Source: a virus | Direction: 5' to 3' (one strand) | IMG/VR virus record: IMGVR_UViG_3300027336_000124 | Location: 1-42,061 of that record | Length of the DNA: 42,061 nt | Part shown: positions 30,212-41,782 of the stretch, piece by piece | How the letters are laid out: each line of letters starts with the position of its first letter | Position numbering within the stretch: the stretch's first letter is position 1 | Translations under genes and position numbers: made by a program | The notes under the pieces: model-generated | Seen by the model: the letters and a program-made list of their open reading frames with translations, nothing else | Database searches by the model: none | What the model was told of the DNA's origin: nothing

Positions 30212-30583
30212 GAAGGAGCGATTGCTTTCCACTGGCCTTACTGAGGACAAAAACTGCTGACGACTTCGCATTCAACCTCGGCGTGAGGCTGATCTGGACC
30301 AGACACCGACTTGGTTGATCAATCTCAACTAACCCGTCGCAGAGACAGAACTGCCACGCGGGGTCAGTGACGGCCGGGGACAAACCGCTGTGACCTTCAG
30401 CGAGACCCGTAGCTCATGAATTTTTCCACCCCGATAGTGCCTACCACTATTCGCGTCGAACATCAACTGATATGCTGGTGGCTTCTGCTTGTATTCGGTT
30501 TGTACATGAGTGGCACCTGGTGGGTCTGCCTGCATCTAAGAACCGTTTTGGCGTTAATCAATCGAATTTTCAGACAAAACTCA
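30212..30583. other. Non-coding junction between lysis and defence cargo
   Basis: No convincing gene is seen. The upstream half has phage-like composition and the downstream half turns AT-rich, so the cargo junction lies here. A 6-bp inverted repeat, ATAGTG (30434-30439) and CACTAT (30445-30450), could be an operator for the restriction gene. An in-frame ATG at 30416 would add a Trp/Leu-rich hydrophobic N-terminus to the nuclease, judged spurious. Confidence 0.5.
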
Positions 30584-31801
30584 ATGAGCTACGGAACGGG
30601 ACGTATTGGCGAAGTCATCGCTTATTTGAAGAAGAAGCATGGCGCAGATATAAAACAGATTTCAGCAGCCAATAAGCTGCATGCGCTCTGCGAATCACTT
30701 CAAATGAAACAAAATACATTTGATCGGATGATCAGTGAAAATTCACCCGTCTTTCGCACTGTTAAGGGTCATGCCTTTGAGAGTTTTTTCGATTCTCTAC
30801 TTGATGCTAATGGAATAAAGGTAACCGAGGTTGGTGGGGACGATGCGGTCGACCGTATTGTCAATTCGAAATCACTACAGCTCAAAACCTGTACAGAGGC
30901 TGGGACCAAAGGCACAATCGTTCAGTATAAGACGCACAAGACTCACGGGGCAAAATCTGAGCAGGAGTCAATGGACTACTACCATAGGGCCGATCACTTC
31001 GCAGAGTATTTGATCGGACTGGTTTCATATGACCCCCTCAACGTAGTCGTTATTGAAAACAGAGAACTCCCTAGGCACCCTCTATCCAAGGAGCATATAC
31101 TTTCGCCGTTCTCCATTGATTGGAGTCGTCACCCAAGCTTGAATGCATTTTCACGCATTGGGGTGACCTTGAAAAATGTTGGTGCAACAAAGCCGGTTCC
31201 TGGTCAAGAAGTGTTGCCTCTTACTTCAAAGAAGCTAGGCATTTCTTCTGATGTCATCCTCAACACCATTCTGAATGATGCCAATTTTCGGATTTGGGAT
31301 ATGTCAATTAGAGGATTTTCTCGTGAAGTAGTATTTCAAGAGATGGTTGCGGCAAATGGAATCAAAATGTATAAACCCTCGGATTTGCGTTCGAGTCGCG
31401 CAGACAAGGCTGATCACGCCGTAAAAATAGCCGGATCCAATAAGTTCATTCAGATGAAAGGAATTTCAACCAATAACTGTGAGCTTAACAAAAGAGATCC
31501 AGTAATTGCGACGGAAACCCAGCTAACAAGGGGGCGCGTCAACGACCACCCAACACAAAGCCGTCTCTACCTGAGGTCTGACTTTGACTATTTGGTTCTC
31601 GGCATGGATCCTCCCGTCGTAGATATGTGCCGTAAAGCATCAGGAACTGGGGCGGGGCTTGAGTGGGAGTTTTATCTAATTCCTACGCAAAATCTTGAGG
31701 GGCATCACGAAATGCCCCACAGGCTAAAGTCTCTCCAGAAGTTTTCATACTCTTCTATTCAAAAATACAAAATTACGGACTGGACGAGGTCGCTAACCTG
31801 A
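30584..31801 (+). CDS. Putative restriction endonuclease with two PD-(D/E)XK-like domains
   Basis: A 405-residue protein convergent with two adenine methyltransferase genes (5-nt gap), the typical layout of a type II system. Two halves share a pattern: a short helical region, then GHAFESFF...ANGIK...VDRIV...LQLK (Glu66, Asp90, Gln99, Lys101) and SREVVFQE...ANGIK...DHAV...IQMK (Glu248, Asp277, Gln290, Lys292). This E-D-QXK order is that of PD-(D/E)XK nucleases, with Gln for Asp/Glu. Both halves continue with similar (D/E)Y(L)..DP segments. The start at ATG 30584 has a weak ribosome site. Base composition is markedly AT-richer than the phage. The function is inferred. Confidence 0.65.
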   Translation: MSYGTGRIGEVIAYLKKKHGADIKQISAANKLHALCESLQMKQNTFDRMISENSPVFRTVKGHAFESFFDSLLDANGIKVTEVGGDDAVDRIVNSKSLQLKTCTEAGTKGTIVQYKTHKTHGAKSEQESMDYYHRADHFAEYLIGLVSYDPLNVVVIENRELPRHPLSKEHILSPFSIDWSRHPSLNAFSRIGVTLKNVGATKPVPGQEVLPLTSKKLGISSDVILNTILNDANFRIWDMSIRGFSREVVFQEMVAANGIKMYKPSDLRSSRADKADHAVKIAGSNKFIQMKGISTNNCELNKRDPVIATETQLTRGRVNDHPTQSRLYLRSDFDYLVLGMDPPVVDMCRKASGTGAGLEWEFYLIPTQNLEGHHEMPHRLKSLQKFSYSSIQKYKITDWTRSLT

Positions 31802-31805
31802 TGAG

Positions 31806-32702
31806 CTAGAGCAAGTCAAGCTGTTCTAAGTGCTCAACGCGGTAGTTTGTAATGAATAGCTCTTTCCCCACCTTTCTGGGGCCAGAGCTATTTGCCGTGT
31901 TGTAGAACCAAGTTTGCTCATAAATGTGTGCCCACGAATAGAGCTCTCTAATCTGAGGGCAATCATCATAAGACAGCAAAAATGCGTGATCCAAAGAGCG
32001 CAGCATTTCTTCAAGACGCAAATGATCTTGAAGTTTGAAGGACTTAGTGTAGGCGCGTTTTTGATCCGCCAAAAAATAAGGCGGATCCAGGTACATCAGA
32101 ACCCGTTTACCTTGAGCTGGTGCGGTTAGCACTTCGGAAAAGTCTAAATTCGATAGATGTACTTCGCTAAGTTTTTTGTTCGCGCCACGAATGAATCTAT
32201 GCCAGTTCTCCGGTGGGGAACTTGCTCCCAACGCATATCCCCACGCGGGCTTGTGAATTATTCCGGAGTAAGAGGTTCTATTTAAATAGTACGTCTTGAA
32301 GGCGACGTCATCCTCATTTAATGGTGAGTATGTTTTGATCTCAGCATGCCTTTCTTTGCTCGCTATTTCACCTGACACTCGAGTTATCAGCAGTTCGCTT
32401 CTTTCTTTCGACTGCATTGCCCTGTAGGTTTCGATCACATCACCTTCAAGATCGTTAAGCCAGTTAAAGCGAGCTTTGGGCTTGCCAAAAAATACGCTCC
32501 CACCGCCAACAAATGGCTCTCGGTACTCATCGTGCGGGTAGGCGTTCAAAAAAGGGATGATGTACTTTAGGGCGTAGAATTTTCCGCCCGGATATCTGAA
32601 TGGAGACTGCGTATGGTCTGCACCTTTTTGGTATACGCTGCTGGCTTTGTATACCCCATCAAAAATTCTAGGTTTAGATGTGCTCAAGACCTGGCACCTC
32701 AT
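31806..32702 (-). CDS. D12-class DNA N6-adenine methyltransferase (Dam-like) 2
   Basis: A 298-residue methyltransferase with FRYPGGK (35-41) and PFVGGGSVFF for SAM binding, and catalytic DPPYF (DPPY at 206-209). It ends with LFITNY. This is the D12/Dam type. Its start overlaps the end of the upstream methyltransferase by 29 nt; the first ~30 residues lack family similarity. It pairs with the next gene and is likely to protect one strand or site of the convergent endonuclease's target. Confidence 0.9.
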   Translation of the reverse strand: MRCQVLSTSKPRIFDGVYKASSVYQKGADHTQSPFRYPGGKFYALKYIIPFLNAYPHDEYREPFVGGGSVFFGKPKARFNWLNDLEGDVIETYRAMQSKERSELLITRVSGEIASKERHAEIKTYSPLNEDDVAFKTYYLNRTSYSGIIHKPAWGYALGASSPPENWHRFIRGANKKLSEVHLSNLDFSEVLTAPAQGKRVLMYLDPPYFLADQKRAYTKSFKLQDHLRLEEMLRSLDHAFLLSYDDCPQIRELYSWAHIYEQTWFYNTANSSGPRKVGKELFITNYRVEHLEQLDLL

Positions 32703-33492
32703 AATTTGTGATCACTAGTTCAAATCCCTGTTTTCTTGCGCCATTTTGAGTGGCCGAATTTTCAACTCGATAGAAGAATTTCAAGGGGTATATATATGCC
32801 CAATCATATATTCTCCTAATCTCCTCGGCGTCATCGTATGTTAAGAAGAATTTGTGCTTCGTGGATCTCAATGCGCTTGCAAGACGGACATGGTCCTCAT
32901 GATCCAGTCCATGCCGATAGTGTTTTCTTTTTGGGGGAAGAAAATATGGGGGATCCACATACATCAGCACTTGGGCTTTCGACCCCTCTTCAATAACCTC
33001 CTGAAAATCCAGAGAGGAGAGATTAACTCCCTCCAATTTTTCGCCGCATGGAATGATTCGCTCATGCCATCGCTCCGGCGGCAGGCTGCGTTTTGGCCTA
33101 TACCCCCAGGCCGGAGATATTAATTTTCCACTGAATGAGGTTCTATTTAGATAGAAGTACTTGAACGCAATATCTAAATCGGACTGCGGAGCAAACTCCA
33201 AAACCTCTCGCCATCGATCCGGGTTGGCCACTTCATTCTCAAATCTTTGAATAAGTGCGGCTCGATCATGAGCATTGGCTACGCACCTATAAGTGGTGAT
33301 CAACTCAGAGTCAATGTCATTCAGCCAAGTGTATTGAGCTGGAGATTTGTTAAAGAAAACTGTGGCCCCTCCGGCAAAAGGCTCTCTGTATTCTGAGTGC
33401 GGAACTGCTTCCCAAAAGGGCTGCAAAATATCCATTGCGTAATGCTTCCCGCCCGGGTATCGAAACAAAAGGGGGGCTCGCTTTGCTGCCAT
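32674..33492 (-). CDS. D12-class DNA N6-adenine methyltransferase (Dam-like) 1
   Basis: A 272-residue Dam-like enzyme with FRYPGGK (10-16), PFAGGATVFF and DPPYF (DPPY at 180-183), ending with LVITNYEV. It is clearly paralogous to the overlapping downstream gene (shared YLNRTS(F/Y)SG and PAWGY), consistent with duplication. It starts 2 nt after the stop of a small RHH-like gene. Two methylases of one type beside one endonuclease suggest an asymmetric target, as in many type IIS systems. Confidence 0.92.
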   Translation of the reverse strand: MAAKRAPLLFRYPGGKHYAMDILQPFWEAVPHSEYREPFAGGATVFFNKSPAQYTWLNDIDSELITTYRCVANAHDRAALIQRFENEVANPDRWREVLEFAPQSDLDIAFKYFYLNRTSFSGKLISPAWGYRPKRSLPPERWHERIIPCGEKLEGVNLSSLDFQEVIEEGSKAQVLMYVDPPYFLPPKRKHYRHGLDHEDHVRLASALRSTKHKFFLTYDDAEEIRRIYDWAYIYPLKFFYRVENSATQNGARKQGFELVITNYEVPGLEHI

Positions 33493-33494
33493 TT

Positions 33495-33701
33495 TTATTC
33501 CTTGTTGCTGATGCTTTTGTTTTCGTCTGTAGAGTCATCTATTGGCAGTGGCATTTGCCCGGCATGTGCGATGAAGCCCTCGGCTTGGGAGACAAACCAT
33601 TCTTTCAAGGTCAACCCTTTTGCCGTCAAATTCGAGTACAAGCCGCGCTTAAGATCTGGATCAATCTCAATCACAATTCGCCCGCTGGAACCTATGCTCA
33701 T
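33495..33701 (-). CDS. Small ribbon-helix-helix-like protein, possible controller
   Basis: A 68-residue protein with a beta strand (GRIVIEI) followed by two helices (DPDLKRGLYSNLTAKG and LTLKEWFVSQAEGFI), the plan of RHH/CopG-type DNA-binding proteins. ATG 33701 is chosen over an upstream start because GAGGTGG precedes it and because the region beyond is AT-rich promoter DNA. It heads the operon with the two methyltransferases, a position held by C-proteins in other restriction systems. Regulation is inferred. Confidence 0.65.
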   Translation of the reverse strand: MSIGSSGRIVIEIDPDLKRGLYSNLTAKGLTLKEWFVSQAEGFIAHAGQMPLPIDDSTDENKSISNKE

Positions 33702-33810
33702 GCCCGCCACCTCGTGACAATGTGATGTAATGTATGTAATATAACATCCTTCTCCCTCAGCAGCCAAGCCCGGATCGCGGGTCGGGAGACGTTTCTGGCA
33801 AGGATTAATC
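33702..33810. promoter_or_regulatory. Divergent promoter/operator region with ATGTAAT repeats
   Basis: It separates the leftward RHH-methylase operon from the rightward McrBC operon. Around 33722-33747 it has two ATGTAAT copies and the near-palindrome GATGTAA...TAACATC, with TATATT on the minus strand as a -10 candidate. These are the only repeats in the gap and are candidate RHH operators. A binding protein here could coordinate both restriction systems. Confidence 0.5.
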
Positions 33811-35601
33811 ATGGCCCGCTATTCAGAGCAAGACACGAGCAAGATCTACCAGGCTGCTGATGCCTTCCGGGTCGACTGCCTCCTACGTGACGGATCACTG
33901 CTGTTCGCCGACGCGTCTGTCTGGCGTCCTGATTTACTGGATCGCATTCACAAAGCCTTCGTCGCCACCCCGGACGAAGGCGACCGGACGTTCATCGACA
34001 AGTTCAAAGACCAAGTCGGAAAGGCCGGACAGGACGTATCACGTCTTGCGGCAGAGATCTTGAGCGTGTACTTCCTGTTCCCATCCAGTGTCGGTGGCGT
34101 GCGCAAGCGGCAGGTCGTGAACGAGGTTCTCAGCTGGGGCGGCGACACCCTGCCGGAGTCCCACCTTGTATCCGCCGCTTTCTCTAACGGGATCGGCAGT
34201 GGCGGTCAGGGCTACAACACCCGCCGCCCTTTCGAGATCGCCTTTCTGATCGAACTCGCCATCGCATGGAAGAAGTTGCCAAACGATCGGCAGGTAGAGG
34301 TGGCGGCCGATCCGTGGCTCTTTCAAGAGGTCGTGGACAGCATTGAGGATGCAGAGTCGAAGCAGCTCCGGCACATGCTTCTTCATCTCCTGTTCCCCGA
34401 GCACTTCGAGCGCATAGCAAGTGGCAATCACAAGCGCAGAGTCATCAAGGCTTTCTCGGGACTGGTCACTGCCGAATCAGAGGATGATGACCGGGCGATC
34501 TTGGCCATTCGCCAGGAGCTAGAAAAGCTGCTTCCCAACCAGGAGCTGGACTTTTACTGGTCGCCGCTTGTCGAGGCTTGGTACGACGACAGCGAGGGCG
34601 CATCTGAAGGCGCGCCGCTGGAGATCATCCAGCACAAGAAGCAGATCGTCCTCTATGGACCGCCGGGTACTGGAAAGACTTTCCGCGCCAAGAAGCTGGC
34701 TGAGCGTGTCATCCGATCTGCGGCACTGAGCCAAATGGGCCCGGCTCGCTACTTCCAGTCGCAATCTGCTATCGAATCCGCGATCCGCGACAACGTGCAT
34801 CGACTGCAGCTGCACCCGGCCTACAGCTACGAGGACTTCATTCGCGCACTCCACATTTCGAATGGCGGTGGCACGGAATATCGATCTGGCTACCTTCCAA
34901 AGCTGATTGAGGACATCGAGCAGAAGCCACGCGCTGAACGTCTGCCGCACATCCTGATCCTGGATGAAATGAATCGGACGGACCTGAGTCGGATGCTCGG
35001 CGAGTGCTTTTCCTTGCTTGAGGATCGCAATCAGACGATTGAGCTTCCGGCACGCAATGGAGACGGGGCGGCAATGAAGCTGCGCATCCCCGACGATCTG
35101 TACGTGATCGGCACCATGAACCTGATCGACCAGTCCATCGAGCAGATCGACTTCGCGCTGCGCCGACGTTTCTTGTGGCTACTTTGCCCGTTTGACGCCG
35201 AGGCTCTAGTGGGGGCCGCGGAATCCAAGTGGCAGGATCTGAAATCGGGCCTGGAGTGGGGTCGCATCGAACCGGATTTCCGCAAATTGGCTGCAGCAGC
35301 GGCGGCGTTGAACAGGCAGATCCACGACAGCCCGCTGCTTGGCTCACAGTACGAGATCGGGCACACCTACCTGCTAGATGTGGTCGTGTTTCTGCGCAAT
35401 TTCCTCGGTGCTCGACCTACACGCAAGCAGAACTACCTTTGGAACAAGAGGGGTGAAGCGCTGGAGCCCGTCGTGCAGGTGTGGAATCTGTCCCTTCGCC
35501 CGTTGCTCGAGCAGTATCTCGCTGGACTGGACGCGACCGCGCGCAACACTGAGCTCGACCGGCTATCCAAGGTTCTGCTCAAGCCGTCGGTGGCCGAGTG
35601 A
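33811..35601 (+). CDS. McrB-like AAA+ GTPase of a modification-dependent restriction system
   Basis: A 596-residue protein. The N-terminal ~260 residues form a variable recognition/adapter part (including HMLLHLLFPEHFERI). The AAA+ motor has Walker A GPPGTGKT (283-290), Walker B LILDEMNRTDL (Asp385) and the McrB-type signature MNLIDQS (starting at 436), where Escherichia coli McrB has MNTADR-like residues. GTC-type specificity is inferred from this motif. It overlaps the McrC start (GTGA). It should translocate and deliver the McrC nuclease onto modified DNA. Confidence 0.88.
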   Translation: MARYSEQDTSKIYQAADAFRVDCLLRDGSLLFADASVWRPDLLDRIHKAFVATPDEGDRTFIDKFKDQVGKAGQDVSRLAAEILSVYFLFPSSVGGVRKRQVVNEVLSWGGDTLPESHLVSAAFSNGIGSGGQGYNTRRPFEIAFLIELAIAWKKLPNDRQVEVAADPWLFQEVVDSIEDAESKQLRHMLLHLLFPEHFERIASGNHKRRVIKAFSGLVTAESEDDDRAILAIRQELEKLLPNQELDFYWSPLVEAWYDDSEGASEGAPLEIIQHKKQIVLYGPPGTGKTFRAKKLAERVIRSAALSQMGPARYFQSQSAIESAIRDNVHRLQLHPAYSYEDFIRALHISNGGGTEYRSGYLPKLIEDIEQKPRAERLPHILILDEMNRTDLSRMLGECFSLLEDRNQTIELPARNGDGAAMKLRIPDDLYVIGTMNLIDQSIEQIDFALRRRFLWLLCPFDAEALVGAAESKWQDLKSGLEWGRIEPDFRKLAAAAAALNRQIHDSPLLGSQYEIGHTYLLDVVVFLRNFLGARPTRKQNYLWNKRGEALEPVVQVWNLSLRPLLEQYLAGLDATARNTELDRLSKVLLKPSVAE

Positions 35602-36926
35602 AACTAGTCGCGCGTGACTGCTCACCGCTCGTCCCGCAACCGACAGCGGCAGAGGTTAACTGGCTCCGGAAGCTCGTAACAAATGTCCGAGCATCGGATT
35701 TTGTAGTTCCCATCTCGGGCGAGAGGGACGAGGACGAGCCCATCGTCTACTGTGCATGGGACGGCACTTGGTGGGCTGGCCGGTACGTCGGCTCGATTTC
35801 CTTCGAGGGGCACAGCCTGACCATTGAGCCACGTTTTGGCCTGAACGTGCTTCGGAATTGGCTTTTTGAAGCAACGTCGGTCGTGCTGACCGACGCGCCC
35901 GGAGAACTCCGGGAGGACGAATCGTTCATTGCCCAACTTCTTGCGTCCGTCTGGGCCCATGGCTTCGTCGAGGCGGCTCGGCATGGGCTGCCTGCGCTTC
36001 GCCGAGAAGTGGCGACGAAAGGCGCGACGGTTAGGGGGCGGCTTGATGTCCCCGCATCACTGCGCTTGATCGCATCAGGTGGGGGACAGGTAGTGTCTAT
36101 CCGTTCGGAGCGGTCGTTGGATCACGCAGCATCCGATGCCATCGTCGCCGCCTACGAGGTTCTGCGACGGTGGCTTGGGGTGCCGGACGAAAAATGGCTG
36201 CCCACACGTGCGAAGGAACTACTCCCCCATTTGATGGCTGTTACCGGCGCGAGACCACGTGTCCCAACGAAGGCCGAACTGGACCGCATTCGCTACACGC
36301 CGATCACAGCAGGGTTTGCGCCTATCGCTGAGTTGTCTAGGCAGATTGCAAACCGAAGGGGGTTGGCTGCTGATATTGATGCCAGTGGCGAAACAAAGGG
36401 TGTGCTGCTCGACGTTGCGGAGCTGTGGGAGATGTACGTCCTCAGCATTTTGCGCAAGGCTGCAGCACCACTGACCGTGACTCACGGTACCCGAGATAAG
36501 GCTGCGACCAAGAAGATGCTCCACAGCGATGTCACCGGGCAAGGTTTGGGTACGCTTATTCCTGATGCAATTTTGTCTTCAAGCGCAGAGGTCCTGGGCG
36601 TTGCAGATGCGAAGTACAAATCGCTGCACCCATCTGCCAGTGCGCCGAACGGACCCCAGCGTGAGGATCTTTATCAAATGGCCGCTTACCTTGGTCGATT
36701 CCGCCACTCGACCAGAGACGATGTCTGTGGCTTCTTGGTGTACCCGCACGATCCAAGTAAGCCGACCGAGACAACGGCAGAGTCATCCAGTCCTTGGAGT
36801 CTGGATGGGCACAAGAAGATCGTTTTCACTACTTTGCCTCATGAGGCATCCGACGCGGTGATCAAGCTACGCACTACCCTCAGCATGATGGTTTCTGACC
36901 GGGGTGCCTGGCTTGTTCGTGCGTAA
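35598..36926 (+). CDS. McrC-like nuclease subunit
   Basis: A 442-residue protein starting at GTG 35598, overlapping McrB by 4 nt. The N-terminal half is the McrC-type region (YVGSISFEGHSLTIEPRFG). The nuclease core is PD (322-323) followed by DAKYK (Asp337, Lys339), the conserved McrC PD-(D/E)XK. It should cut DNA when bound to the McrB ring. The ADP-ribosylglycohydrolase gene starts 17 nt downstream. Confidence 0.9.
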   Translation: MKLVARDCSPLVPQPTAAEVNWLRKLVTNVRASDFVVPISGERDEDEPIVYCAWDGTWWAGRYVGSISFEGHSLTIEPRFGLNVLRNWLFEATSVVLTDAPGELREDESFIAQLLASVWAHGFVEAARHGLPALRREVATKGATVRGRLDVPASLRLIASGGGQVVSIRSERSLDHAASDAIVAAYEVLRRWLGVPDEKWLPTRAKELLPHLMAVTGARPRVPTKAELDRIRYTPITAGFAPIAELSRQIANRRGLAADIDASGETKGVLLDVAELWEMYVLSILRKAAAPLTVTHGTRDKAATKKMLHSDVTGQGLGTLIPDAILSSSAEVLGVADAKYKSLHPSASAPNGPQREDLYQMAAYLGRFRHSTRDDVCGFLVYPHDPSKPTETTAESSSPWSLDGHKKIVFTTLPHEASDAVIKLRTTLSMMVSDRGAWLVRA

Positions 36927-36943: not shown

Positions 36944-38833
36944 ATGCCCAACCTTTTTAATCTTCACCTGAAAGCGGACGTCCTGGAACGGTACCAGCTC
37001 CCCGATATTGCTTATCCGATCAGAAAGAGTGACTTGGCGGTCTGTCTAGAGGGATCGGGGTCTTTACCAGTAGCTACGCTGCTTCATGGTTTGCAGCAGC
37101 GTAGCCGGGACGGCGCAGCCGAATGGCAGCAGGCCGAACCCGCAATGGATCGGCTTGCCGAGCTATTGGCACCCGACGATGCCCGCGACGTCATCTCCGC
37201 TGCCGGCGACCACTGGTGGCTCGAGGTCGGGCCCGTGGACCTTGCCGGCAAACTGGTCACCATCCAACGTGGTGATTTTCTGATCGCTGCCATCACCGCC
37301 CGGGACGATGGACGCTTGCGGGTGGCTGTGTTTCGCCCATTGGACGCCAAGAGCGCGGAGTACCTGATCGGGCTGGGGCAAGTGCCTCACCCTGAGCACG
37401 GCGTCTGTATGCGCGAGAACAACTGGGAGTACGCGCTCGACTGCTCTGCCGGAAACGGCAACTACTACGCTGCCGACCGGGGCGAAGCCTACCTGTCCTA
37501 CTGGGAGAAAGGCCTGGGCATCAGTTGGGTCGGTTCCGATGTGCCCGAGTGGCGCAAGCAGCTGGACCTCGTTGCCCGGCCCGCCCCCCGCGTAGTCGCA
37601 GAGCTGGGCATCTACTACACCTTGTCCAGCAATGAGGAGGAGGAGCCCGTTGCCGATGCGGGCGCGGCGGAAGAATTCGAGACACCGGCACCACCGGCCT
37701 GGCGCGGCAAGCGCCAGCAAAAACGCACGGTCCAGGGGCGATTTCTGGGCTGCCTGCTAGGTGGTGCAGTCGGAGATGCGCTGGGCGCACCGGTCGAGTT
37801 CATGAAGCGGGCAGAGATCCTCCGTCGCTTCGGCCCCAAGGGCATCACCCAGTACGCACCGGCTTATGGCGGCATGGGGACGATCACCGACGATACGCAG
37901 ATGACCTTGTTCACCGCTGAGGGGTTGATCCGAGGCTGGGTGCGCGGCTGTTTCAAAGGCATCACAACCTATTCCGGTGTTACGGCCCACGCCTACTTGC
38001 GCTGGCTGCAAACCCAAGGCGAACGTCCGACCTGCGACATCGACTTCGGCACCGATGAGCCTGGCTGGCTGTTTCAGCAGCGCCAGCTGCACAGCCGTCG
38101 CGCACCGGGCAACACCTGCCTCGCTGCCCTGCGGGCGATGAATTCCCTCGGGGAGTCGGCCCGCAACGACAGCAAAGGCTGCGGCGGCGTCATGCGGGTT
38201 GCGCCGGTCGGTCTGTTCGCCTGGCGCCTGCGTCAGCACGAATCTCCCCAAGACGCCTTCCGGCTGGGTACCGAGTTGGCTGCGCTGACCCATGGCCATC
38301 CGACCGGCGCTCTGACCGGTGGTGTGCTGGCAGTGCTAATCCTGGCGCTGACCGATGGCGCTTCGCTGCCCGAGGCGCTGGCCGCCGCCAAAAGCCTCCT
38401 GCGAGCCGAGCCCGGCCACGATGAGACGCTGCGGGCAATAGAGATGGCCGAGGAGATGGCCGAGGAGTTGGCCGATTCCGGCCTGCCCCATGAAGAAGCC
38501 ATTGCCCGGCTGGGCCAGGGTTGGATCGCCGAGGAGGCCCTGGCGATCTCCATCTATTGCGCGCTGGTCGCCCGCAATTTCAAGGATGGGGTGATTCTGG
38601 CGGTGAACCACGATGGCGACTCCGACTCGACCGGCGCGATCGTTGGCAACCTGCTGGGCGCAATGCACGGCGTGAAGGCGATCCCTGCCGAGTGGCTGGG
38701 GCCCCTGGAGCTGCGCGACGTAATCACCGAATTGGCGGAAGACCTCTACGCGTTCAAGGATTGGGCGATAGGCGAGTACAGCGACAACGAAGAGCTGAAC
38801 CAGCGGATCTGGCGGAAGTACCCGGGGTTCTGA
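36944..38833 (+). CDS. ADP-ribosylglycohydrolase with unknown N-terminal domain
   Basis: A 629-residue protein. Residues ~265-600 are an ADP-ribosylglycohydrolase: GCLLGGAVGDALGAP (from 269), TDDTQM (Asp316, Asp317, Thr318), KGCGGVMR and DGDSDSTG (Asp557, Asp559, Asp561), the metal-binding set. Residues 1-230 (WWLEVGPVDLAGKLVTI, CMRENNWEYAL) are not recognised, and an acidic/Pro-rich linker (~232-262) joins them. It follows McrC closely (GGGAG about 12 nt ahead of ATG), suggesting co-transcription. It could reverse ADP-ribosylation or hydrolyse a signal; this is inference. Confidence 0.82.
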   Translation: MPNLFNLHLKADVLERYQLPDIAYPIRKSDLAVCLEGSGSLPVATLLHGLQQRSRDGAAEWQQAEPAMDRLAELLAPDDARDVISAAGDHWWLEVGPVDLAGKLVTIQRGDFLIAAITARDDGRLRVAVFRPLDAKSAEYLIGLGQVPHPEHGVCMRENNWEYALDCSAGNGNYYAADRGEAYLSYWEKGLGISWVGSDVPEWRKQLDLVARPAPRVVAELGIYYTLSSNEEEEPVADAGAAEEFETPAPPAWRGKRQQKRTVQGRFLGCLLGGAVGDALGAPVEFMKRAEILRRFGPKGITQYAPAYGGMGTITDDTQMTLFTAEGLIRGWVRGCFKGITTYSGVTAHAYLRWLQTQGERPTCDIDFGTDEPGWLFQQRQLHSRRAPGNTCLAALRAMNSLGESARNDSKGCGGVMRVAPVGLFAWRLRQHESPQDAFRLGTELAALTHGHPTGALTGGVLAVLILALTDGASLPEALAAAKSLLRAEPGHDETLRAIEMAEEMAEELADSGLPHEEAIARLGQGWIAEEALAISIYCALVARNFKDGVILAVNHDGDSDSTGAIVGNLLGAMHGVKAIPAEWLGPLELRDVITELAEDLYAFKDWAIGEYSDNEELNQRIWRKYPGF

Positions 38834-39172: not shown

Positions 39173-39622
39173 TCAAGCGGCGATCTCGGAATGAACGATG
39201 TGCGCGATCTCGTATTTACGGACATCCTCGAGCCGATAAAGCACTTTGCCGCCGATCTTGAGATAGTCTGGCCCCTTCCGATCGGCTCGCCATCGCTGTA
39301 GGCGTGAGGTGGAGCAGTGCCACCGCAGCGCAAGCATCTGCTCGGTGAGAAGCTCGGGCATTGCAGTCGACGATGATAAGTCGGCTGGCGCAATCGCTCG
39401 CCCACTTCGCGCCTTTTGTATGCCGAGCAATGCATCTGACGCGGCCAGCTTTCCGCGAAGATGAGCGAGCTGCTTTAGGTCGCCCGGTGTGATTGGCATA
39501 CTGACGCAAATCGATCCGTTCGGGCCGTCCTTCAATGTGCTGCTTTGCGCTCGGGATTCAATGGATCGGATCACTTGCTCAGTCGCGAGCCTATCGGCCA
39601 AGAGTGCCTTTCGGGTTTTCAT
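39173..39622 (-). CDS. HTH (excisionase/MerR-like) protein
   Basis: A 149-residue protein. The C-terminal ~50 residues (LLTEQMLALRWHCSTSRLQ, YLKIGGKVLYRLEDVRKYE) have the HTH_17/excisionase-type winged-helix pattern; the N-terminal ~95 are helical and unrecognised. ATG 39622 has a perfect AAGGAGG ribosome site, overlapped by a 7-bp inverted repeat. The position just outside the probable attachment site suggests a remnant or a neighbouring element. Confidence 0.65.
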   Translation of the reverse strand: MKTRKALLADRLATEQVIRSIESRAQSSTLKDGPNGSICVSMPITPGDLKQLAHLRGKLAASDALLGIQKARSGRAIAPADLSSSTAMPELLTEQMLALRWHCSTSRLQRWRADRKGPDYLKIGGKVLYRLEDVRKYEIAHIVHSEIAA

Positions 39623-39623
39623 A

Positions 39624-39645
39624 AGAACCTCCTTTTAAAGGTTCT
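39624..39645 (-). promoter_or_regulatory. Inverted repeat over the ribosome site of the HTH gene
   Basis: On the minus strand, AGAACCT, an 8-nt loop and AGGTTCT form a perfect 7-bp stem immediately before ATG 39622. The Shine-Dalgarno sequence AAGGAGG (39634-39628) lies in the loop and stem, so folding or protein binding here could control translation or transcription of the HTH gene. Confidence 0.45.
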
Positions 39646-39721
39646 ATTGCACCCTCTGACAGATCAAGCGTCCCGCCTGCTCCAAATCAGGTGTCTGGCC
39701 CAGCAATTGCAAAATCAGTGC

Positions 39722-41782
39722 ATGAATCCCCGTTTTGTTCCTAGTCGCTTCTTGTTGTCACTGATTTGGTGCGCAACTCCTGTTTTCGGTCACGAACTCG
39801 CACCAATAGTGGTCACGGGGCATTACGACAACTCGATCGGTACCAGTGATGCTGCCAGCGAAGGTGTGATCGGGCCAGAGTTGCTACGTAATCGAGCGAT
39901 CTTGCGCCCTGCCGATGTTCTGGAGTACATCCCAGGCATGGTGGTCACCCAGCATTCAGGTGACGGCAAAGCCAATCAATACTTTTTGCGTGGCATGAAC
40001 CTCGACCACGGCACCGACTTCGCAACGATTGTCAACGGCGTGCCGGTGAATATGCCGACACATGCGCACGGGCATGGCTACAGCGATTTGAATTTTCTGA
40101 TTCCTGAACTGGTGCAACGGGTTGAGTACCGCAAGGGGCCTTACTTCGCGTCCGAAGGAGATTTTTCATCCGCTGGCTCAGCCAACTTCGTTTATCGAAC
40201 CAAGTTAGACCGTCCTTTTGCTGATGTGACGATTGGACAGCGTGGATATTTGAGGGGTGTAGCTGGTGTTTCCCGGGAGGTGAGTGAGGGCGTGACCTTG
40301 CTGACAGCCGTCGAACGTCTGAATAACAACGGGCCGTGGAGTGTTCCCGAGGGGATTCGTAAAACCAATGCTCAATTCATACTCAGCGGAGGCAGCCCAC
40401 GCGAGGGCTGGTCAACTAGCCTGTCGGCTTATTCAGCACGCTGGAATTCGACAGATCAGATTCCGCAACGTCTGATTGATGCAGGAAGTTATCAGGGGCA
40501 ACCGTTCGGTCGATTCGATTCACTGGATCCATCGGATGGCGGAAATACAAACCGCACCAGTTTGTCGGGCAACTGGCATCAATCCACAGATCATGAGCTG
40601 ACAAAGATCGAGTGGTATGCCATCAAGTATGACCTGAATTTGTTCTCCAACTTCACCTACAGCTTGGACAGAACCAATGACCAGTTCGCCCAGACCGATG
40701 ACAGATCAGTGTGGGGTGGCAAAGCCTACAGGTCCTGGTTCACCGATTTGAGCGATGGACGGAGCATGCAAAACACCTTAGGGGTGCAGATGCGACAAGA
40801 CCGAATTCGCGTTGGACTCTATGACACCGTGGCCAGACAAATTCAGTCAACCGTTCGGGATGATGATGTTCACCAGACCCTAGTTGGCATTTATGGCGAA
40901 AACGAAATGGGCTGGAGCTCATGGCTACGAACGGTGACAGGCTTGAGGGTTGACCAATTCAGCGCCAAAGTCACCAGCCATTCACAGCCACAGAATTCTG
41001 GAAACGCAGCAGCGTCCAAGGTTTCGCCCAAGTTTTCCGTCATCTTCGGACCATGGCAGAAAACAGAGTTTTTCATCAATGCGGGCAATGGTTTTCACAG
41101 CAATGACGCACGCGGTACCACTGCCAAGGTGGACCCCAAGACGGGATTGCCGATTGATTCTGTTCCTGGTCTCGTCAGCTCGCGTGGACAAGAGATAGGG
41201 GTGAAATCGCAGATCGTTCCCGACCTACAAACGACCTTGGCCATCTGGCGGCTCGATTTCGATTCAGAACTGGTTTATGTTGGAGATGCAGGCAACACCG
41301 AAGCGGGACGTCCCAGCCGTCGAACCGGTGTGGAGTGGAGCAACCATTGGACACCGGGTGAGCATTTTTTGATGGATGCTAATTTTGCGTGGACCCAACC
41401 AAGGTATTCGAACAATGACCCCGCAGGTAATTACATCGCCAACGCTGTCCAGAAAGTTGCCAATTTCACATTCGCGTTGCGTAATTTGGGGCCGTGGTCT
41501 GGCTCGTTGGGCATTCGCTACATCGGAGCGGCTCCTTTGATTGAGGACAATTCCGTTCGATCAAACGCCAGTGTTGCCGCCAATCTCCGTGTGAACCGAA
41601 AAGTTTCAAACGATCTGGATGTCGCGCTAGACATCTTGAACCTGACCGATCGCAAGAACAACGACATCAGCTACTACTACACCTCGCGAGTCGCTGGTGA
41701 ACCGCTTGGGGGTGTAGACGGAGTGCACGTTCATCCGGCAGAGCCCCGGACTATCAGGCTCACAGCAAGAATGAGGTTTTGA
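39722..41782 (+). CDS. TonB-dependent outer-membrane receptor
   Basis: A 686-residue receptor. Signal peptide at ~1-24 (FLLSLIWCATPVFG), then a TonB-box-like APIVVTG near 27-33, a plug domain (~45-150, including RNRAILRPADVLEYIPGM) and a 22-strand-type barrel ending in Phe. The plug contains the His-rich MPTHAHGHGYSD. ATG 39722 is chosen because the signal peptide starts there; the upstream in-frame ATG at 39545 overlaps the HTH gene. The substrate is unknown; the His cluster hints at a metal or metal complex. Composition fits chromosomal DNA outside the phage. Confidence 0.88.
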   Translation: MNPRFVPSRFLLSLIWCATPVFGHELAPIVVTGHYDNSIGTSDAASEGVIGPELLRNRAILRPADVLEYIPGMVVTQHSGDGKANQYFLRGMNLDHGTDFATIVNGVPVNMPTHAHGHGYSDLNFLIPELVQRVEYRKGPYFASEGDFSSAGSANFVYRTKLDRPFADVTIGQRGYLRGVAGVSREVSEGVTLLTAVERLNNNGPWSVPEGIRKTNAQFILSGGSPREGWSTSLSAYSARWNSTDQIPQRLIDAGSYQGQPFGRFDSLDPSDGGNTNRTSLSGNWHQSTDHELTKIEWYAIKYDLNLFSNFTYSLDRTNDQFAQTDDRSVWGGKAYRSWFTDLSDGRSMQNTLGVQMRQDRIRVGLYDTVARQIQSTVRDDDVHQTLVGIYGENEMGWSSWLRTVTGLRVDQFSAKVTSHSQPQNSGNAAASKVSPKFSVIFGPWQKTEFFINAGNGFHSNDARGTTAKVDPKTGLPIDSVPGLVSSRGQEIGVKSQIVPDLQTTLAIWRLDFDSELVYVGDAGNTEAGRPSRRTGVEWSNHWTPGEHFLMDANFAWTQPRYSNNDPAGNYIANAVQKVANFTFALRNLGPWSGSLGIRYIGAAPLIEDNSVRSNASVAANLRVNRKVSNDLDVALDILNLTDRKNNDISYYYTSRVAGEPLGGVDGVHVHPAEPRTIRLTARMRF

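Follow-up and report, generated by a model that had tools for sequence, protein, structure and literature searches.

A candidate single-chain restriction endonuclease with two Mrr-like cores, encoded beside paired D12 methylase genes at a prophage edge

The window (the whole stretch of DNA analysed, 42,061 nucleotides, positions 1 to 42,061 of the IMG/VR virus record IMGVR_UViG_3300027336_000124) carries a gene for a candidate restriction endonuclease that faces two methylase genes at the right edge of a prophage. The features discussed here, including controller-like genes of two related loci, are the following.

30584..31801, + strand: candidate restriction endonuclease of 405 aa with two tandem PD-(D/E)-QxK-like cores; full-length homologues in three other lineages
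30755..31063, + strand: core 1, residues 58-160, with E66, D90 (or D86) and Q99xK101 (alternative Q114xK116); Mrr_cat similarity and invariant residues
31289..31618, + strand: core 2, residues 236-345, with E248, D277 and Q290xK292; conserved residues, model strands and a weak Mrr_cat match
31806..32702, - strand: M2, D12-class N6-adenine DNA methyltransferase (Pfam MethyltransfD12, E 9.7e-25), convergent with the nuclease gene
32674..33492, - strand: M1, D12-class N6-adenine DNA methyltransferase (Pfam MethyltransfD12, E 2.7e-21)
L002:4059-4286 and L003:5750-5995: HTH genes resembling controllers, each overlapping the start of a relative's nuclease gene

Full-length homologues of the nuclease were found in an alphaproteobacterial metagenome-assembled genome (MAG; 60-61% identity), a Fluviicola MAG (54%) and a plasmid of Planktothrix agardhii (51%). 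A longer open reading frame of the gene opens at 30416, but the homologues begin with the same N-terminus (MSYGTGRIGE or MDYGTGRIGE), which identifies 30584 as the correct start. Viral contigs and phage records yielded no further relatives, and about 1,190 genomes drawn from Pseudomonadota and Bacteroidota contained none beyond those already known. The family is consequently rare and scattered in the sequences searched. None of the homologues found has a known specificity. The candidates L016 and L017 were rejected as chance matches, and PDLC03436, a weak match of the Fluviicola protein, is a different restriction endonuclease linked to another kind of methylase.

The arrangement of genes is shared by all four loci: the nuclease gene is convergent with two D12 methylase genes, which overlap or abut. 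The first-pass annotation, made from the window alone, had proposed looking for homologues beside paired D12 methylases, and the three homologues as well as the window copy do adjoin such a pair. In the window, M1 overlaps M2 by 29 bases and the two proteins are 48% identical; judged by sequence, they are clearly paralogues. By orthology the methylases fall into two groups (identities of 63-69% among the M1s, 55-61% among the M2s and 41-49% between the groups), an M2 orthologue lies at the same place in every locus and the DPPY motifs are intact. Two orthologous groups with intact motifs are what would be expected for one methylase per strand. As in Type II systems, the endonuclease and the methylases are encoded by separate genes that stay together in the four loci, and the nuclease with M1 and M2 is predicted to be a Type II restriction-modification module.

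Small HTH genes placed directly before the endonuclease gene typically act as controllers in Type II systems. In the Fluviicola locus, 17 bases at the nuclease start are shared with a 75-aa HTH gene, which matches the controllers C.BclI (E 6.4e-17) and C.AhdI (E 9.8e-14). At the Planktothrix locus, an 81-aa HTH_3 gene overlaps the nuclease start by 4 bases; it matches C proteins weakly and other XRE proteins better. No HTH gene lies directly upstream of the nuclease in the window or at the alphaproteobacterial locus. Directly upstream of M1 in the window, a 105-aa open reading frame (33495-33812, - strand) has a weak match to the RelB/DinJ antitoxins (E 0.0024) and may regulate the methylase genes; the Fluviicola and alphaproteobacterial loci showed no counterpart.

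The base composition of the module differs from that of its surroundings. Its GC content is 44-46% and its GC3 about 0.5 (0.47 for the nuclease), compared with about 65% and about 0.8 in the preceding prophage tail and lysis genes, and this contrast indicates that the restriction-modification module was probably acquired separately. Genes for a McrB-like AAA+ ATPase and a McrC-like protein (33811-36926, + strand) adjoin the module, and the two together form a small group of defence genes at the edge of the prophage. The next gene after McrC (36944-38833, + strand) codes for a protein of 629 aa; its C-terminal domain is an ADP-ribosylglycohydrolase (E 4e-78), and some 260 residues at its N-terminus have no assignment. 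A TonB-dependent receptor gene (39545-41782, + strand) is probably host sequence, so that the virus record seems to extend past the end of the prophage. Near the left end of the prophage, two successive genes (281-2970, + strand) each have ParB-like and DNA methyltransferase matches.

The idea of a duplicated nuclease site came from the first-pass annotation, and the eight residues that it cited (E66, D90, Q99 and K101 in half 1; E248, D277, Q290 and K292 in half 2) are all where it placed them. Judged from the single sequence, the duplicated motif is weak and only modestly beyond chance: two E-D-QxK patterns of similar spacing occurred in 786 of 20,000 shuffles of the nuclease sequence (4%), and a repeated pentamer of any kind in 217 of 5,000 (4%). 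It is conservation across the homologues that makes the motif real. Nine residues are invariant in the four nuclease proteins (E66, D86, D90, Q99, K101, D274, D277, Q290 and K292), and the two cores are about equally conserved, with 46 invariant columns of 103 in core 1 and 45 of 110 in core 2. E248 is a glutamate in three of the four proteins and a glutamine in that of Planktothrix, which has a glutamate one helical turn further on, at position 252; site 2 may thus be weak or relocated in this strain. The DP segments said to follow the motif residues of each half are found at 150-151 and 342-343, where P151, D342 and P343 are invariant and the segments align to each other. The pentamer ANGIK is indeed present twice (75 and 257), with its copies in register, but the homologues do not keep it and it was dropped as a shared module.

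Half 1 also contains a second invariant QxK, Q114-Y-K116, which the first-pass annotation did not mention. Alignment of the two halves favours Q99xK101 as the site of half 1, whereas the Mrr profile alignment puts the QxK of Mrr against Q114xK116. The partner of D277 likewise varies with the method, being D86 with MAFFT and D90 with hhalign.

Half 1 is the part of the protein with the clearer similarity to Mrr nucleases. Its match to Pfam Mrr_cat (PF04471; E 0.0054) scores 17.3 bits, below the gathering cut-off of 21 bits, and we therefore call the nuclease Mrr-like rather than a member of Mrr_cat; the Planktothrix protein gives a similar value (E 0.0056). Against a profile built from 20 Mrr_cat members taken from genomes, half 1 aligns with an E of 4.9e-6 in hhalign, a score attained by none of 300 column shuffles. 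The motif order of Mrr_cat, E ... D ... QxK, is present in the nuclease. The QxK variant, described at first as unusual, is in fact standard in the active site of Mrr-like enzymes (PMC11347163, PMC12707154), in keeping with the Mrr_cat match of half 1. The PD-QxK site is a feature that half 1 shares with the Mrr_cat nucleases; the window nuclease differs from them in falling below the Pfam cut-off and in its linkage to methylases. Neither a winged helix nor any other reader of modifications was recognized in it.

Half 2 has no nuclease match in Pfam. Its similarity to the 20-member Mrr_cat profile is weak (P 0.016; 3 of 300 shuffles), with D277 and Q290xK292 in register. An AlphaFold2 (AF2) model of the full-length protein, built from three sequences with that of Planktothrix left out, has a pLDDT of 44 and strands confined to half 2 (helix 235-257; strands 278-282, 285-292 and 294-300). 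The best match of this model in the PDB by Foldseek is I-Ssp6803I (2ost; E 7e-3, probability 1.00), followed by Hjc and RecU, all of which are PD-(D/E)XK nucleases. Given the strand positions, we assign these matches to half 2, which may, at low confidence, fold like such nucleases; I-Ssp6803I itself is a homing endonuclease that acts outside restriction-modification systems. The AF2 model of half 1, obtained from a mixed alignment of half 1 and half 2 sequences, has the order helix-strand-strand-strand (pLDDT 38) and gave no nuclease match. As both models are poor, the fold of neither half is shown with confidence. Structure prediction thus lends low-confidence support to one half of the two-core proposal and none to the other, although both motifs are conserved and half 1 matches Mrr_cat.

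The two halves are colinear from the helix containing E66 or E248 to beyond the DP segments, with 18-24% identity in the MAFFT alignment. This agrees with the self-alignment anticipated for a duplicated enzyme, but the similarity is weak: in hhalign, half 1 against half 2 gives P 0.018-0.027, and 3 of 300 shuffles attain the score. The alignment is suggestive of an origin of the halves by duplication, short of proof.

Enzymes that combine two catalytic sites in one chain and are accompanied by two methylases already form an established group, Type IIT (Mva1269I, BtsCI, AciI, BsrI, BssSI and BsrBI; the AciI system also has a controller protein; PMC4081073), so this architecture is not new. The window nuclease resembles them in its two methylases and in the two catalytic sites predicted for its single chain. 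Mva1269I and BtsCI, the members whose sites are described, have sites unlike each other (PMC6097692), EcoRI-like with FokI-like, or SD-X6-E-X14-QR with PD-Xn-EXK, whereas both cores of the window nuclease look Mrr-like with QxK. A PDB search detected no sequence match of the nuclease to nuclease chains, that of BbvCI included. BbvCI is nevertheless comparable in organization: its two homologous subunits (about 27% identical) are PD-(D/E)XK units that each cut one strand, and they are active when tethered in one chain by a 21-aa linker (PMC6326814). They are encoded by separate genes and have ExK sites (E167/K169 and E177/K179), while the window nuclease is a natural single chain with QxK. What appears to be new, with AciI, BsrI, BssSI and BsrBI compared by description only, is the nuclease family and the Mrr-like appearance of both its cores.

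We consider it probable that the locus is a mobile Type II module, inserted at the prophage's right edge and coding for a Type IIT-like single-chain enzyme. The nuclease would have two related Mrr-like PD-(D/E)-QxK units, one for either strand of an asymmetric target, which would be cut inside the recognition site or a short distance away. N6-adenine methylation by the diverged D12 enzymes would shield the target, with M1 acting on one strand and M2 on the other. That the target is asymmetric is what the paired methylases and paired cores best suggest; cleavage activity and the allotment of one strand to each site are likewise predictions.

A single active core is an unlikely alternative. Here the Mrr-like half 1 would be the cutting part, half 2 a nuclease fold that has decayed or serves to bind DNA, and dimerization would allow both strands to be cut. 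It would account for the glutamine at position 248 in Planktothrix, for an Mrr_cat match that is clear for half 1 and weak for half 2, and for the lack of a Pfam nuclease match in half 2. However, D277, Q290 and K292 do not vary across the four lineages, and conservation is about equal in the two cores; moreover, a homodimer on a palindrome is ill-suited to two diverged methylases. Another reading is a homodimeric enzyme on a palindromic target with two redundant methylases of the same specificity, as in the rare Type IIP systems that carry two methylases (PMC4081073). We regard such a homodimer as very improbable, since M1 and M2 are two distinct groups kept in all four loci and a dimer of two-core chains would possess four sites. 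The Mrr-like QxK site and the modification-dependent McrBC next to the module could also point to a modification-dependent (Type IV) nuclease that lies beside two methylases by chance. We give this reading almost no weight: the nuclease keeps company with both methylases in four lineages, an association that McrBC does not share, and at two loci the start of the nuclease gene is overlapped by a controller-like gene.

If the two-site, single-chain reading is correct and both sites work, these proteins constitute a rare family of small (405 aa) enzymes with two matching nuclease units per chain, and loss of either site should yield strand-specific nicking enzymes. Both the pair of nuclease units and the pair of methylases would probably have arisen by parallel duplications from a simpler system with one nuclease and one methylase. 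In its fuller form this scenario is tentative, and we hold it at somewhat less than even: a homodimeric Mrr-like nuclease would have been duplicated and fused, with its methylase duplicated in parallel; the outcome would be a new family of restriction endonucleases and the conversion of a palindromic system into an asymmetric one with two QxK sites of the same type. If true, this would be a readable case of the passage from a symmetric to an asymmetric restriction system.

Modules with a single D12 methylase exist on Acinetobacter plasmids (L013:3995-5650 and L014:4986-6641), the second a few kilobases from blaOXA-72. The methylase is 45% identical to M2 and convergent with a 266-aa restriction endonuclease (PADLOC REase_II), which was rejected as a one-core ancestor for want of a convincing likeness to either half (14 columns, P 0.03). 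Systems of the HaeIII family are usually paired with a cytosine methylase. An odd pairing in this respect is seen on several cyanobacterial plasmids, where a HaeIII-family endonuclease accompanies a D12 adenine methylase; on a Nostoc plasmid (L015:3142-4837), the endonuclease gene (Pfam RE_HaeIII, E 1.6e-21) overlaps that of the methylase.
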